Positions 2,373 through 20,660 of a stretch of 64,000 nucleotides of DNA are shown one piece after another. The DNA comes from Parvibaculaceae bacterium PLY_AMNH_Bact1 (lineage in GTDB: Bacteria > Pseudomonadota > Alphaproteobacteria > Parvibaculales > Parvibaculaceae). The notes below the pieces were generated by a model. It worked only from the letters and a program-made list of their open reading frames with translations. It was not told where the DNA came from and did not search any database. A program made the translations under genes and the position numbers. The stretch lies in assembly GCA_032881465.1 (NCBI GenBank), contig CP126168.1, positions 3,163,501 through 3,227,500 of the forward strand. The letters are read 5' to 3'. Every line of letters begins with the position of its first letter. The first letter of the stretch is position 1.

Positions 2373-2951
2373 ATGGTTGTTCTGAACAAAATCTATACCC
2401 GCACTGGCGACAAGGGCACGACAGCCCTTGGTACCGGTGACCGCGTGGCAAAGCATGATGTCCGCGTCGAAACCTATGGCACCACGGATGAGGTGAACTC
2501 TGTCTTGGGATTGGCACGCCTGCACACTGGTGACCTACCCGCGATCGATACTGCGCTTAGCCGCATTCAAAACGATCTCTTCGACCTTGGTGCAGACCTT
2601 TGCTTTCCAGAGAGCGACGAGCCCCTCAATTATGAGCCGCTGCGTGTAACCGACGCACAGGTCGAATGGCTTGAAGCTGAGATTGATCACCTGAACGGTG
2701 ACCTCAAGCCTCTGAGTTCTTTTATTCTGCCAGGGGGCACATCCCTTGCCGCCCACCTGCATCACGCAAGAACAGTGTCGCGGCGGGCAGAGCGGCTGTG
2801 CGTTGCGCTTGGCGAGGCGGAGCCAGGCAAAGTAAGCGATGCTGTTCTGAAATATCTCAATCGACTGTCAGATTACCTCTTTGTTGCAGCACGCTGGTGC
2901 AACGACAAAGGGCGGGCAGATGTACTTTGGACCCCCGGCGCAAACCGATAG
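2373..2951 (+). CDS. corrinoid adenosyltransferase, PduO type
   Basis: Transfers the adenosyl group of ATP to cob(I)alamin to give adenosylcobalamin. The N-terminal ATP-binding motif NKIYTRTGDKGTTAL, the segment RVETYGTTDEVNSVLG and the late SRRAERLCVAL are signatures of the PduO family; 192 residues is a normal length. It lies upstream of etfB-etfA and 3-hydroxybutyryl-CoA dehydrogenase, an order common in Rhizobiales, though here a reverse-strand PAS gene sits in between. The product cofactor is needed by the class II ribonucleotide reductase at 18.3 kb and, in many relatives, by methylmalonyl-CoA mutase. Confidence 0.94.
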   Translation: MVVLNKIYTRTGDKGTTALGTGDRVAKHDVRVETYGTTDEVNSVLGLARLHTGDLPAIDTALSRIQNDLFDLGADLCFPESDEPLNYEPLRVTDAQVEWLEAEIDHLNGDLKPLSSFILPGGTSLAAHLHHARTVSRRAERLCVALGEAEPGKVSDAVLKYLNRLSDYLFVAARWCNDKGRADVLWTPGANR

Positions 2952-2984: not shown

Positions 2985-3470
2985 TTACTCTGCATCCCGG
3001 CGGTCATGTGCCCAGGCGTCTTCAATCTTCTGCCAAACTTCACTGAGATAGCTCGCCCGCGATTTCTCTGCATGGGAGAGATAGATCGCAAATCCTTCCG
3101 TCACACGATCTGACCGCTGGACCGGCTGGACCTGCAAATGTCCCCAAAAAGAGACGCCCGCCTTCGTATAGGCGAGCATATCGAGCTCTATCGCTTCTTC
3201 ACTATTGAGAGCTGCCTGGAAATCCGACAACGCAATCGGGTCCGTGTCTGGACCAGAAAGCCACCCAACCGGATGGCCCACAAGGTCCGGCCCCTCATAG
3301 CCTGTCATTTCGCAAAACTGTTTGGTGGCATAGGCAATCTGATGAGGTTCGCCACCGCCACCGACGATCAATAGAGCAGCAAGCCGAAAATCAACTGGCT
3401 GCAATCGCTGAAGCTCTTCCTCAAGGCGAGGCGACAAGCCCCCCTCCAAATTATGCGCTAGAGCACCCAT
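2985..3470 (-). CDS. LOV-like PAS domain protein lacking the photoactive cysteine
   Basis: A 161-residue single-PAS protein. The PAS core (about residues 28-132) follows the LOV pattern: FCEMTGYEGPDLVG, then GHPVGWLSGPDTDP (65-78) where LOV domains have GRNCRFLQGPxTD, then LDMLAYTKAGVSFWGHLQVQPV. The flavin-adduct Cys is Val68, and the usual flavin-contacting Asn, Arg and Gln positions are also changed, so FMN photochemistry is unlikely. A helix follows (140-160), as in LOV J-alpha helices, with no output domain. I place the start at 3470, where GGGAGG precedes ATG by five bases; a longer reading to 3554 lacks such a site. It converges with the adenosyltransferase gene (33 bp between stops). 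Confidence 0.8.
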   Translation of the reverse strand: MGALAHNLEGGLSPRLEEELQRLQPVDFRLAALLIVGGGGEPHQIAYATKQFCEMTGYEGPDLVGHPVGWLSGPDTDPIALSDFQAALNSEEAIELDMLAYTKAGVSFWGHLQVQPVQRSDRVTEGFAIYLSHAEKSRASYLSEVWQKIEDAWAHDRRDAE

Positions 3471-3893
3471 AGCATCCTCCCAGAAGCTGGCATGACGACA
3501 GCATGTGTCCATGTCTGAGTCGCGCCAAAAGGTGCATAAACCTACCACTGCCAAGTAATAATAAGAAGTTCTTTGTGTTTTTCTGAAATCACCAGTCTTG
3601 CAAAGTAAAAAGTAGTAACAGTTTCATGTAATTGCCTGATGCGGCGTTTGGCTCAACCTCCCCCAATTGACAGTCCCCAGACCTCGGATTAGTTTGCCGC
3701 ACCGCAAAGATGGCGACCTTAAAAATCGCCAGAAACAGCAGGTTTCCTTCGCCGGAGAGACAAGATAAGCAGTGTATCGCACTGAGCTTTCGCCGGTTGA
3801 GTGAGGCCATCAATTTTTTAGGCCAACGCCAAACCTTAGGACCAACGGTAAGTCTTGAGGCAAACGCCAGGCAACGCGCAGGAGTTCACCTCA
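3471..3893. other. 423-bp non-coding region before etfB
   Basis: Separates the reverse PAS gene from etfB, so it must hold promoters for both. I see TTTGCCGCACCGCAAA at about 3692-3707 (5-bp arms TTTGC/GCAAA), which could be an operator, and repeats of a short GCCA/GGCAA theme just before etfB, but nothing I can assign with confidence. No RNA gene is evident. Confidence 0.4.
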
Positions 3894-4643
3894 ATGAAAG
3901 TGCTCGTTCCCGTCAAGCGAGTGGTCGACTACAACGTCAAAGTCCGGGTCAAATCGGATCAGACGGGTGTCGAGCTCGCTAACGTGAAAATGTCCATGAA
4001 CCCATTCGATGAAATTTCCATCGAAGAAGCGGTTCGCCTCAAAGAAGCCGGCACAGCGACCGAAGTCGTCGTTGTCTCCATCGGCCCACAGCAGGCACAG
4101 GAAACCATCCGCACAGCGCTCGCTATGGGCGCGGACCGCGGAATTCTCGTCAAAACAGATGATGAAGTTGAGCCTCTTGGCGTTGCCAAAGTTCTCAAGT
4201 CCATCGTGGACGAAGAACAACCTGGTCTCGTTATCGTTGGCAAACAGGCCATCGACGACGACAGCAACCAGACGGGTCAGATGCTCGCCGCCCTTTTGGG
4301 TTGGCCACAGGGCACATTCGCTTCCAAAATCGAACTCGATGGGGACAAAATCAATGTCACCCGCGAAATCGATGGCGGCCTGCAAACAGTTCGCCTGAAT
4401 GCACCAGCGATTGTGACATGCGACCTCCGTCTCAACGAGCCGCGCTACGCATCGCTGCCAAACATCATGAAAGCAAAGAAAAAGCCGATTGATGAGAAAG
4501 CCATCGCAGACATCGGTGTTGATGTGAGCCCACGCCTTGAGGTTGTGAAAGTAACAGAACCTTCAGAGCGCCAGGCTGGCATCAAAGTGGAATCGGCCGC
4601 TGAACTGGTTGCCAAGCTCAAAGAAGCAGGAGTGATCGGATGA
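3894..4643 (+). CDS. etfB: electron transfer flavoprotein beta subunit
   Basis: Beta subunit of the soluble ETF, which collects electrons from acyl-CoA and other flavin dehydrogenases and hands them to ETF:ubiquinone oxidoreductase. The 249-residue protein starts [19 protein letters not shown] and contains the AMP-binding and signature region [41 protein letters not shown] and the recognition loop [20 protein letters not shown] that binds partner dehydrogenases. Start ATG at 3894 follows GGAG by about 12 bases. It overlaps etfA by four bases (ATGA), so the two subunits are translationally coupled. Confidence 0.97.
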
Positions 4644-7213: not shown

Positions 7214-7289
7214 GGCCTGTCAGCCTACTGGATGAAGCCCGAGCCCTTTGATACTAAGCGGTGGGCGCAACCATTGTGGCAAAACGTAC

Positions 7290-7820
7290 ATGTCTGCGAA
7301 AGATCCACATATAGGAATGCGACGTCAGACCGCCAACGAATGGCAGGTTCTTGACTACCCAACTCATGACAAAACAAAAGCTCTTTTCGACTATTGGAAC
7401 TCGAAACGTGGTGACCATCTGGCCCCATTGCGTTCCTCGATTGACCCAATCGATGTACCCTCACTTCTCCCAACAATCCTTCTTCTGGAGGTAGAGGGCC
7501 CTGATCCGTTGCGCTTCAAAGTCCGCGTTTATGGAACAGCCATCGTCACAATGACTGGCGAAGAAAGAACCGGGCGCTACCTGGATGACTTCGGCGACGA
7601 CTTAACCCCCTCCGTACGCAATGTCATCATCGACCGGTGGCAAAGCGTATGCCTTACGGTTGTCCGGGAGAAACGTCCCGTATTCGTCCAAGGCATGCGG
7701 CGAAATCCCGAAAGGACTCATCAGACCGTCCACGTAGCCGCACTGCCGCTGACAACGGATGGGATGACTGTCTCTCATCTCCTTGGCGCCATGGTCACAG
7801 AGGCAGCCGCATCAGCTTGA
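7290..7820 (+). CDS. PAS_5-family PAS domain protein
   Basis: A 176-residue single-domain protein of the alphaproteobacterial PAS_5 group. The family pattern is visible as ALFDYWNSKRGDHLAPLRSS, then IDPIDVPSLLPTILLLEV, RFKVRVYGTAIV and TGRYLDDF. Such proteins have a PAS-like fold and no output domain, and their ligands and partners are unknown. Two starts compete: a TTG at 7248 and the ATG at 7290 chosen here. Neither has a convincing ribosome-binding site. It converges with the tlpA-like gene, 24 bases between stops. Confidence 0.8.
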   Translation: MSAKDPHIGMRRQTANEWQVLDYPTHDKTKALFDYWNSKRGDHLAPLRSSIDPIDVPSLLPTILLLEVEGPDPLRFKVRVYGTAIVTMTGEERTGRYLDDFGDDLTPSVRNVIIDRWQSVCLTVVREKRPVFVQGMRRNPERTHQTVHVAALPLTTDGMTVSHLLGAMVTEAAASA

Positions 7821-18332: not shown

Positions 18333-20660
18333 ATGACGCAGCCCGATACTCTGATCCCCATTGCCGACCAAATCTGGCAAATGAAATACCGCTTCAGCGG
18401 GTCAGACACGCTGCCCGCCGATGAGACGGTTGAGGCAACATGGTCCCGCATTGCAAAGGCGCTAGCAGAAGCAGAAGCGCCCAATGATCGGTCCCGGTGG
18501 GAAACAGACTTCACACAGGCTTTGCAGGGTTTTCAGTTCTTGCCCGCCGGGCGCATTGTGGCTGGCGCTGGCACCAAACGCTCGGTGACGCTCTTCAACT
18601 GTTTCGTCATGGGCGACATACCCGATGACATGGGCGGCATTTTCGAAGCCTTGAAAGAAGCTGCGCTCACCATGCAGCAGGGCGGTGGCATCGGATATGA
18701 CTTCTCTACCTTGCGTCCCAAAGGCGCCGAGGTAAAAGGCGTAGGGGCAGATGCATCCGGGCCTTTGAGCTTTATGGATGTCTGGAACGCCATGTGCCAG
18801 ACCATCATGTCTGCAGGGTCAAGACGCGGCGCCATGATGGCAACCATGGTGTGTAGCCATCCAGACATTGAAGACTTTATCAAAGCAAAACAGGAAGCTG
18901 GTCGACTGACCATGTTTAACCTGTCCGTACTCGTCACGGATCCGTTTATGGAGGCGGTTGAAGCAGACAGTGATTGGCCGCTTATCTTTGGCGGCAAAAC
19001 CTACAAGACAATCAAAGCCCGGGCACTCTGGGACATGATTATGGAAGCCACCTACGCCTATGCGGAGCCGGGTGTCATTTTCATTGATCGCATAAACAAA
19101 CAAAACAATCTCGCCTATTGCGAAACCATTCACGCCACCAATCCTTGCGGCGAGCAGCCTCTCCCGCCCTATGGCGCCTGTCTTCTCGGGTCGATCAACC
19201 TTGCACGATTGGTCAAAAACCCGTTCGGTGCTGACGCCAAAATTGATCTAGCAGAGCTCGATAGGTTGGTGCGCACTGCTGTACGTGCCATGGACAATGT
19301 CATCGACATTTCTCGCTTTCCCTTGCCTCAGCAGGAACATGAAGCCAAAGCCAAGCGCCGCATTGGCCTCGGTGTCACCGGCCTTGCAGATGCGCTGGTC
19401 ATGTGTGGCGCGCGATATGGCAGCGATGAAAGCCTCAACCTCATTGAGACCTGGATGCAGGCCCTCCAACGAGCTGCCTACCTTGCCTCAACAGACCTTG
19501 CCGCCGAGAAAGGGGCATTTCCTCTTTTCGACAAAGAGGCCTTCCTCGCCAGTGAAACCGTCAAGCGCCTCGACGCGGATGTCCGAGCTGCTATTGAAAA
19601 AAGGGGAATTCGAAACGCGCTTCTCACGTCCATCGCGCCGACAGGAACAATTTCTCTCTTTGCTGGAAATGTCTCAAGCGGTATCGAGCCCATCTTTGCA
19701 CTGAACTATACCCGCAAGGTTCTGATGCCAGACGGGTCGCGCTCAGAAGAGAAAGTCGTCGACTATGCCGTTACTCAATATCGAGCGAAGTTTGGCGAGA
19801 CAGCGGCACTGCCGGACACCTTCGTGACAACGGAGGGTCTTAGTCCGCAAGACCATGTCAGGGTTCAGGCCACCGTTCAGAAATACATCGACAGCTCGAT
19901 TTCAAAAACCATCAACTGCCCTGAAGACCTGAGCTTTGAAGATTTCAAATCAGTCTATCGGGACGCCTATCGGATGGGCCTGAAAGGCTGCACCACCTAT
20001 CGCCCAAGCAATATACGCGGCTCAGTCCTCTCAACGACCGCACCAGCCGAACACAAAGAAACACAAAGCCAGTCTGCCCTGCCTTTGGAAGCCCCGAAGC
20101 CAGCCCTTGACCCGATTGAGCACGATGGTGTGGTCTACATGTCATCGCCTTTGGAGCGTGATTCAGTACTCCCGGGCTTCACATACAAACTTCAATGGCC
20201 TGAAAGCGATCACGCCATGTACATCACGTTGAACGACATCTTACAGGACAATCGCAGACGGCCCTTTGAGATTTTCATCAACTCAAAAAACATGGAGCAC
20301 TACGCCTGGACCGTTGCCCTAACCCGCATGATATCAGCCGTCTTCCGTCGCGGGGGTGACGTTACCTTTGTGGTTGAGGAACTGAAAGCCGTGTTTGACC
20401 CGCGCGGCGGTGCCTGGGTTGACGGACGATATGTTCCCAGCCTGCTGGCCGCCATCGGCGAAGTGATCGAACAACATATGATCGACACAGGGTTCATCGC
20501 CAAGAATGAGGGGCGGCCGATTTCAGAAGCACTTCAGAAAGTCGCCGGCGATGCAGACGGTCCGAAGCGGGCGAGCTGCCCCCGCTGTGGCGATCGCTCA
20601 CTGATCCGCCAGGAAGGCTGCGACAACTGCACCGAGTGCGGATATTCAAGGTGCGGCTGA
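18333..20660 (+). CDS. nrdJ: adenosylcobalamin-dependent (class II) ribonucleotide reductase
   Basis: Reduces ribonucleotides to deoxyribonucleotides using adenosylcobalamin to generate the active-site thiyl radical. In the 775-residue protein, the barrel shows FNCFVMGDIPDD, TMQQGGGIGYDFS, the active-site NPCGEQPLPPYGACLLGSINL (Cys and Glu of NPCGE) and PTGTISLFAGNVSSGIEP. A TSCPD-type domain (about 605-730) includes RRPFEIFINSKN. The C-terminus carries CPRCGD and CDNCTECGYSRCG, cysteines of a zinc ribbon and probably the redox-active tail pair. It follows a LexA-type box. Seven bases separate it from the ycaQ-like gene, whose DNA-repair role fits SOS control of both. Confidence 0.96.
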   Translation: MTQPDTLIPIADQIWQMKYRFSGSDTLPADETVEATWSRIAKALAEAEAPNDRSRWETDFTQALQGFQFLPAGRIVAGAGTKRSVTLFNCFVMGDIPDDMGGIFEALKEAALTMQQGGGIGYDFSTLRPKGAEVKGVGADASGPLSFMDVWNAMCQTIMSAGSRRGAMMATMVCSHPDIEDFIKAKQEAGRLTMFNLSVLVTDPFMEAVEADSDWPLIFGGKTYKTIKARALWDMIMEATYAYAEPGVIFIDRINKQNNLAYCETIHATNPCGEQPLPPYGACLLGSINLARLVKNPFGADAKIDLAELDRLVRTAVRAMDNVIDISRFPLPQQEHEAKAKRRIGLGVTGLADALVMCGARYGSDESLNLIETWMQALQRAAYLASTDLAAEKGAFPLFDKEAFLASETVKRLDADVRAAIEKRGIRNALLTSIAPTGTISLFAGNVSSGIEPIFALNYTRKVLMPDGSRSEEKVVDYAVTQYRAKFGETAALPDTFVTTEGLSPQDHVRVQATVQKYIDSSISKTINCPEDLSFEDFKSVYRDAYRMGLKGCTTYRPSNIRGSVLSTTAPAEHKETQSQSALPLEAPKPALDPIEHDGVVYMSSPLERDSVLPGFTYKLQWPESDHAMYITLNDILQDNRRRPFEIFINSKNMEHYAWTVALTRMISAVFRRGGDVTFVVEELKAVFDPRGGAWVDGRYVPSLLAAIGEVIEQHMIDTGFIAKNEGRPISEALQKVAGDADGPKRASCPRCGDRSLIRQEGCDNCTECGYSRCG

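Follow-up and report, generated by a model that had tools for sequence, protein, structure and literature searches.

A stand-alone LOV-like PAS protein with a degenerate flavin site and a conserved C-terminal segment in one genus of the Parvibaculaceae

The window analysed here, a stretch of 64,000 nucleotides from Parvibaculaceae bacterium PLY_AMNH_Bact1, encodes a LOV-like PAS protein of 161 residues in which, as far as aligned sequence tells, nearly all the residues that hold flavin in LOV domains are lost, and flavin binding is probably lost with them. In the genomes searched the family is restricted to one genus. The protein is best explained as a LOV-like PAS protein that has a single domain, carries no chromophore and may act as a protein-interaction module or adaptor, a reading to which we assign a probability of about 0.5, since the flavin site appears to be gone, the conservation pattern is inverted, the tail is conserved, dN/dS is low, the best VIA-align matches are flavin-free, and MopJ and the short LOV proteins offer precedents. 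A flavin-free LOV-like PAS domain is as such a known kind; new here is a conserved stand-alone protein of one genus. The features are collected in Table 1.

Table 1. Positions in the window, strand and basis of the LOV-like gene, the parts of its product and the adjoining genes.
Feature	Position	Strand	Basis
LOV-like single-domain PAS protein, 161 aa	2985..3470	(-)	ORF with ribosome-binding site, PAS_9 match, orthologs in 7/7 genus genomes
N-terminal cap, residues 12-32, including predicted helix 14-23	3375..3437	(-)	AF2 model mf3fba6deba27; 9/21 positions invariant in 7 orthologs
PAS/LOV-like core, residues 33-131	3078..3374	(-)	sequence and structure matches; 27/99 positions invariant
Degenerate photoactive loop GHPVGWLS, residues 65-72 (LOVs: GRNCRFLQ)	3255..3278	(-)	V68 at adduct-Cys site; W70 invariant
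Conserved C-terminal segment AEKSRASYLSEVWQKIEDAW, residues 134-153, mostly predicted helix	3012..3071	(-)	13/20 positions invariant in 7 orthologs; modelled helix 138-160
pduO-type cobalamin adenosyltransferase, convergent neighbour	2373..2951	(+)	PF01923 218 bits, TIGR00636, synteny
etfB, electron transfer flavoprotein subunit, divergent neighbour	3894..4643	(+)	PF01012 150 bits, synteny

Gene, neighbourhood and distribution

The reading frame opens with an ATG at 3470 and closes with a stop codon that ends at 2985, giving 161 residues plus stop, and GGGAGG, the ribosome-binding site, ends five bases upstream of the ATG. In-frame starts exist further upstream in the ORF; the Met at 3470 is an invariant column in all seven orthologs. 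The frame stands alone, with no output or effector domain, as the initial annotation had said of this single-domain product, and with no kinase, nor is it part of a voltage-gated channel. A foreign composition of the gene was considered and rejected, its G+C content being 55.1% against 55.2% for the window.

The gene order pduO, LOV-like gene (on the opposite strand), etfB, etfA is kept in six of the seven genus genomes, and in the seventh the LOV-like gene is linked to pduO and the contig ends beside the gene. Sixteen other genomes of the family were examined and an etfB locus was found in 15, none of which has a LOV-like gene in between; pduO adjoins etfB at about 200-366 bases in 14 of them. 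Since these 14 of 15 relatives keep the pair without the gene, the LOV-like gene was gained in the genus ancestor within an older pduO-etfBA pair, and because the neighbours predate it their functions say little about its own. The significance that had been attached to the cobalamin and ETF neighbours is not supported. A promoter-like block, TTGACA-N17-TAGKTT, at 3667-3695 (+) reads toward etfB, whose ATG follows 181-198 bases further on, and recurs in 6/6 intergenic regions of the genus; part of the leader immediately downstream of the block is conserved too. No Rfam match at gathering thresholds was found in the whole window. Elsewhere in the window, a second small stand-alone PAS protein is encoded at 7248-7820 (+), matching PAS_5 with 56.7 bits and having MopJ as its best NCBIfam model with 65.8 bits, which is under the cut-off of 200. 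An adenosylcobalamin-dependent ribonucleotide reductase at 18333-20660 (+) (TIGR02504, 596.8 bits) is a plausible user of the pduO product.

Among 40 genomes of the order, full-length orthologs were found in 7/7 of the genus and in 0/33 of the others, the six further genus orthologs being 42-93% identical to the window protein. Three of these 33 genomes gave partial matches within frames of 904-1238 aa, and 54 other relatives searched gave partial matches in eight cases and no ortholog. With at most nine candidates scored per genome, no full-length ortholog outside the genus was found in a class sample (385 genomes, three of them genus members) or in a phylum sample (398 genomes, one genus member). 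All 169 matches in plasmid records were below 60% identity, the best among the 15 matches listed being 37%, and in viral contigs ten stretches fit Rhizobium LOV patterns and none is a relative. No report of the family was found in titles and abstract starts of open-licence papers. One genus member, Alpha proteobacterium Mf 1.05b.01, is assigned in passages of PMC10915500 to the Parvibaculaceae, and its possible host is given there as the dinoflagellate Breviolum minutum.

A search for the canonical LOV motif, run as an exact DNA motif for NCR-x-L-x-G-x-x-T that variant loops would escape, found none in 7/7 genus and 30/30 other family genomes; the positive control matched 5/5 known carrier genomes, and a reversed motif matched once in each of two family genomes and nowhere in the genus. 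Outside the family the photoactive Cys is present in 39 of 63 distinct domain rows, and in 11 of the 13 stand-alone frames shorter than 230 aa that were read outside the genus. The motif KxRASYLS of the tail was absent, on residue-by-residue reading, from the six outside matches that run on into the tail region (positions 154-160 of the 164 in the profile), and a search of the genome for the C-terminal motif returned the gene itself and no second protein.

Three other domains were recorded. The sole other protein match, L002 (G000:C1:2809384-2812629), is a 749-aa frame with the PAS loop GRKPGHFLRAP for GRNCRFLQ and no Cys; relatives with this loop occur in five other genus genomes, so that a Cys-less LOV-like domain is found in a genome lacking the canonical motif. 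A 383-aa frame, L122 (G548), holds a Cys-less LOV-like domain (GRSTHFLLGPDTD, LAYTRAGAAFWA) in which the same two Asn positions are lost; it sits on a very long branch (2.26) and may be a parallel case. In the LOV-like domain GRNPCFLDGPETD of a 198-aa frame, L035 (G359), Pro stands at the photoactive position with a Cys one residue later, and the Asn preceding that position and FWN are retained.

Likeness to LOV domains and state of the flavin site

By sequence, the likeness of the 161-aa protein to LOV domains is far above chance. Brucella LOV-HK is its best PDB sequence match (phmmer E 1.3e-13), a PDB profile search reached E 2.1e-17, and the best 60 of 135 PDB phmmer matches are LOV constructs, an identity taken from titles and, for some matches named only 'histidine kinase', presumed by us. 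Two NCBIfam models named as LOV photoreceptors gave 54.7 and 54.9 bits, and PRK13559 and PRK13557, which we take to be LOV kinases, gave 62.7 and 55.5 bits, all four far under their whole-protein cut-offs because the core alone is matched; the generic PAS S-box model gave 24.1 bits. Pfam PAS_9 (PF13426) was matched with 40.5 bits against a cut-off of 27, and no match to PAS_5 or MopJ models was found at E up to 0.1 in Pfam and 1 in NCBIfam. The profile comparison of LOV with general PAS families that had been proposed for this protein thus came out on the LOV side, and the LOV pattern first reported for it holds, the quoted strings being present and LOV proteins ranking first in PDB, NCBIfam and Foldseek.

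The predicted fold is LOV-like as well. A first model built on six alignment rows had a mean pLDDT of 62.8, and a second on 14 rows, for which 12 viral-contig stretches selected by LOV motif were added solely to deepen the alignment, had 76.1, with blocks of 75-88 in the core and 61-68 in the tail. The second model is a PAS fold with a predicted helix 14-23 and a long predicted helix 138-160; of the model's helices the latter has the lowest confidence (blocks 61-63). VIA-align of this model placed the hERG PAS domain 4hp9 first (Z 18.5, rmsd 1.5 A over 117 residues), followed by ELK 4hp4 (17.6), EAG1 4llo (17.5), aureochrome as the first LOV (17.3), then DsLOV (17.0), and RsLOV at 16.7; as Z differences below 1 are ties, hERG alone leads the LOVs, by 1.2, and ELK, EAG1 and the LOVs are tied. 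With the first model hERG was again first but tied with LOV (15.6, 15.1), and Foldseek placed Brucella LOV-HK first with both models. On whether a non-LOV PAS family would match better, a point raised by the initial annotation, sequence and Foldseek thus favour LOV, and only VIA-align has hERG PAS narrowly ahead.

In the alignment Val68 occupies the position of the photoactive Cys, as first annotated, and the seven orthologs have V, V, V, V, F, T and T there, none of them Cys. Of 20 positions taken to line the flavin in oat LOV2 ten are polar contacts, and the window protein retains 0/10 of these. The position of phosphate-binding Arg451 (oat LOV2 numbering) is Asp or Glu in five of the seven orthologs, that of Gly511 is Ile or Val in all seven, and that of Gln513 is Leu or Phe; Tyr130 neighbours the latter and would replace Gln513 in the window protein given a one-residue strand shift. 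The T418 and Q513 positions are hydrophobic in 7/7 and C450 in 5/7, the other polar-flavin positions being small, polar or acidic, and in the window protein both phosphate-binding Arg positions and all Asn and Gln contacts are changed. Each of the seven orthologs keeps two of nine LOV-conserved residues, the nine being those that Yee et al. list in their methods (PMC4682037). The claimed loss of the Asn, Arg and Gln contacts is therefore borne out. All seven orthologs have Trp70 in the place of a Phe of LOVs. The orthologs do not all show the same decay, since the most divergent one, G006, retains the equivalents of Gln454 and Arg467.

The only cysteine of the window protein is Cys53 in the C-alpha helix. 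Its position holds Cys in five of the seven orthologs and Gly and Ser in the other two, and canonical LOV rows (L061, L022, L106, L110) also have Cys there besides the photoactive one, so Cys53 is judged by sequence not to be a relocated adduct Cys and was rejected as a substitute; the initial annotation had considered another Cys near the flavin, and Cys53 is the sole one seen. The F-alpha Trp of FAD-PAS domains of the Aer/NifL type, a conserved residue that is the rule for that group in a passage of PMC10468136, is likewise missing, no Trp occurring at residues 78-88 in 7/7 orthologs. With the adduct Cys and the flavin contacts gone from the sequence, the suggested loss of photochemistry and probable loss of flavin are supported.

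Conservation, ancestry and function

The LOV-like gene is constrained, yet evolves faster than etfB and pduO at depth. The dN/dS ratios are rough, with many dS values close to 1 or higher. Of 21 pairs, the six formed by the four closest orthologs gave 0.021-0.044; pairing these four with G004 gave 0.076-0.104; and of the 11 pairs that involve G005 or G006, six gave 0.16-0.35 and five were saturated. For etfB, compared in 6/7 genomes, the ratios were 0.016-0.040 in the same four-closest pairs and 0.048-0.064 out to G005/G006, and for pduO, compared in 4/7 genomes, 0.022-0.034 in the five computable of its six pairs. The low ratios among the four closest orthologs indicate that this is not a decaying gene.

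Judged by alignment, the best-conserved part of the protein genus-wide is the predicted C-terminal helix KxRASYLSxxWxxIExAW and the worst is the polar pocket, which is the reverse of true LOVs. Residues 134-153 have 13/20 invariant positions versus 27/99 in the core (Fisher p 0.0018). At the ten polar pocket positions 39 Cys-LOVs have an identity of 0.78 versus 0.44 in the rest of the core, whereas the seven orthologs have 0.47 versus 0.66 and the three most divergent of them 0.25 versus 0.46. A Cys-less group of eight is inverted likewise (0.29 versus 0.45) and a Cys-less group of ten is not (0.62 versus 0.45). The contrast of pocket and core rests on this comparison with LOVs, the count of invariant positions being 3/20 for the 20-position pocket and 24/79 for the rest of the core, without statistical significance (p 0.26), and the pocket hardly varies among the four closest orthologs, 19-20 of its 20 positions being identical to the window protein. 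An amphipathic tail was tried as a feature and rejected, as 1719 of 10000 shuffles had a hydrophobic moment as high. The conserved C-terminal helix, the restriction to one genus and the likeness to flavin-free KCNH PAS domains had all been overlooked in the initial annotation.

Descent from a photoreceptor, as was suggested there, is possible and unproven, because the tree, the AU test and the profiles are split between the LOV and the Cys-less sides; of that suggestion the LOV-like fold stands, and the descent does not, since Cys-less LOV-like PAS domains fit about equally. The other origin, that the family goes back to a PAS domain, LOV-like and already Cys-less, that was cut out of a larger signalling protein and never to a photoreceptor, is given a chance just short of even, and as it concerns ancestry it is compatible with the adaptor explanation. 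A tree of 70 domains unites the genus in a single clade (100/100), with a stem 2.49 changes per column long, and leaves the placement of that clade unfixed; the best tree puts it on the LOV side, weakly (78/59), whereas two Cys-less placements were not rejected by the AU test (p-AU 0.357 and 0.358) and constraining the genus to join one or the other Cys-less group lowers the log-likelihood by just 0.17 units. The window protein scored 70.9 bits with a pooled Cys-less profile (18 rows) and 69.2 bits with a Cys-LOV profile (39 rows), and the profile-profile scores were 130.03 and 129.98, although each Cys-less group alone gave lower scores of 60.7 and 59.9 bits and the Cys-less rows were gathered by likeness to the genus family, which biases toward them. 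The absence of the canonical motif from genus and family genomes favours the Cys-less ancestor; the Cys kept by 11/13 short stand-alone relatives and the solved-structure matches listed, which are LOV, speak against it, though non-LOV relatives are scarce among solved structures. Many members of the LOV cluster lack the Cys, which is present in 57% of the cluster according to a passage of Xing et al. (PMC10468136).

For the function we prefer the adaptor explanation. The PAS core and N-terminal cap would form a stable and probably dimerising scaffold whose former flavin pocket may be closed or shrunk by hydrophobic residues, and the predicted C-terminal helix would be a surface engaging a putative partner, probably a signalling protein, by analogy with MopJ or the KCNH PAS domains; given the lack of cofactor contacts and effector domain, the conserved outward parts would be the N-cap and this helix. 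The helix could however serve dimerisation or stability alone, and it is the least confident one of the model with an ordinary hydrophobic moment. The low pocket invariance is not significant by count, is shared by one Cys-less group and not another, and gives way to near fixation among the four closest orthologs; the hERG lead is 1.2 Z only, is a tie in the first model, and Foldseek ranks LOVs first. The two contacts kept by G006 and the higher dN/dS of the computable G005/G006 pairs also count against the adaptor explanation. The larger proposal, that the genus-specific family is a LOV-type fold turned into a constitutively blind adaptor, in which selection moved from flavin pocket to signalling helix, the module relays a protein-borne signal to a partner, and a prokaryotic counterpart of the KCNH-channel PAS domain has arisen, is put forward tentatively and may well prove wrong.

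The main functional rival, unlikely but to be taken seriously, is a ligand sensor, in which the flavin pocket has been remodelled to a smaller, mostly hydrophobic cavity and the binding of another small molecule would move the terminal helices. The near fixation of the pocket among the four closest orthologs suits it, and its feasibility is shown by KCNH PAS domains, the best structural matches, among which, according to a passage of PMC3598652, hERG and mEAG retain cavities of some 110-136 cubic angstroms and dELK has none, as compared with 730 for FMN in a LOV domain. Genus-wide, on the other hand, the pocket is among the least conserved parts (3/20 invariant), unlike a shared ligand site, and the FAD-PAS-type F-alpha Trp is lacking in all orthologs. 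That the protein is a local regulator of cobalamin or ETF metabolism tied to pduO and etfBA is improbable: linkage to both genes in 6/7 genus genomes, and to pduO at the contig end in the seventh, would fit, but the neighbours are older than the gene and do without it in 14/15 other family loci, the gene lies on the opposite strand, and the promoter-like block reads toward etfB. It is very improbable that the protein senses redox state through a flavin, or weakly senses light, and signals via flavin reduction as Cys-less LOV* proteins such as BAT-LOV* do; photoreduction or chemical reduction can serve Cys-less LOV-like proteins for signalling (a passage of PMC4682037) and an electron transfer flavoprotein gene is the neighbour, yet the LOV* proteins in that source were selected for at least nine other conserved residues, whereas 2/9 of those listed remain here and both phosphate-binding Arg positions and all Asn and Gln contacts are changed. 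Hardly any credence is given to a decaying photoreceptor pseudogene, which would account for the lost cofactor contacts and for evolution faster than that of etfB and pduO, above all toward G005/G006, since the frame is open in 7/7 genomes, dN/dS is low among close orthologs and the tail is conserved.

If the adaptor explanation is true, this small protein from bacteria, standing alone and with its tail helix conserved, would lend itself well to studying what a LOV-type fold does after losing its cofactor. LOV-like matches should not be annotated as photoreceptors outright; a dinoflagellate culture is the source of one genus member, and for such a source a light sensor would have been tempting to assume.

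Comparison with known systems

Brucella LOV-HK (3t50, 6ph2) and other LOV photoreceptors, the top sequence and Foldseek matches, have the PAS fold and the GxxxxxLxGPDTDP loop in common with the window protein, which differs from them in having no adduct Cys, 2/9 conserved residues and no kinase. The short LOVs DsLOV, RsLOV and PpSB1-LOV are single domains with terminal helical extensions, as is predicted for the window protein, but RsLOV and PpSB1-LOV carry the Cys and bind flavin, whereas the window protein is without Cys and contacts. For DsLOV the Cys and the binding of flavin are stated in a passage of PMC4335406, where short LOVs are described as having an N-cap and/or C-terminal helices and as probably signalling via a partner protein, with the terminal helices thought to be involved. 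In the LOV* proteins, with BAT-LOV* as example (Yee et al. 2015, passages of PMC4682037), the adduct Cys is naturally replaced as in the window protein, but nearly all other conserved residues are kept, against 2/9 here, and this natural Cys-less example still binds flavin.

The best-known flavin-free members of the LOV cluster sit in eukaryotic channels, and the KCNH (hERG/EAG/ELK) PAS domains with their PAS cap are the top structural matches of the window protein by VIA-align. Xing et al., in passages of PMC10468136, place them in the LOV cluster, note that in EAG1 hydrophobic residues stand in place of the polar ones that bind flavin, and consider that the KCNH PAS domain may originate from an alphaproteobacterial FMN-PAS. 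The EAG domain acts by contacts with another channel domain (a passage of PMC5016179). These domains are however parts of eukaryotic ion channels, and shared descent with the window protein is not supported beyond the LOV cluster. In the Alphaproteobacteria a lone PAS domain can act via a kinase, as MopJ of Caulobacter, a stand-alone PAS regulator, interacts with the kinase DivJ (a passage of PMC4432633); the window protein differs from it in matching neither the PAS_5 nor the MopJ model, and what the two would share is the mode of action of a single PAS domain.
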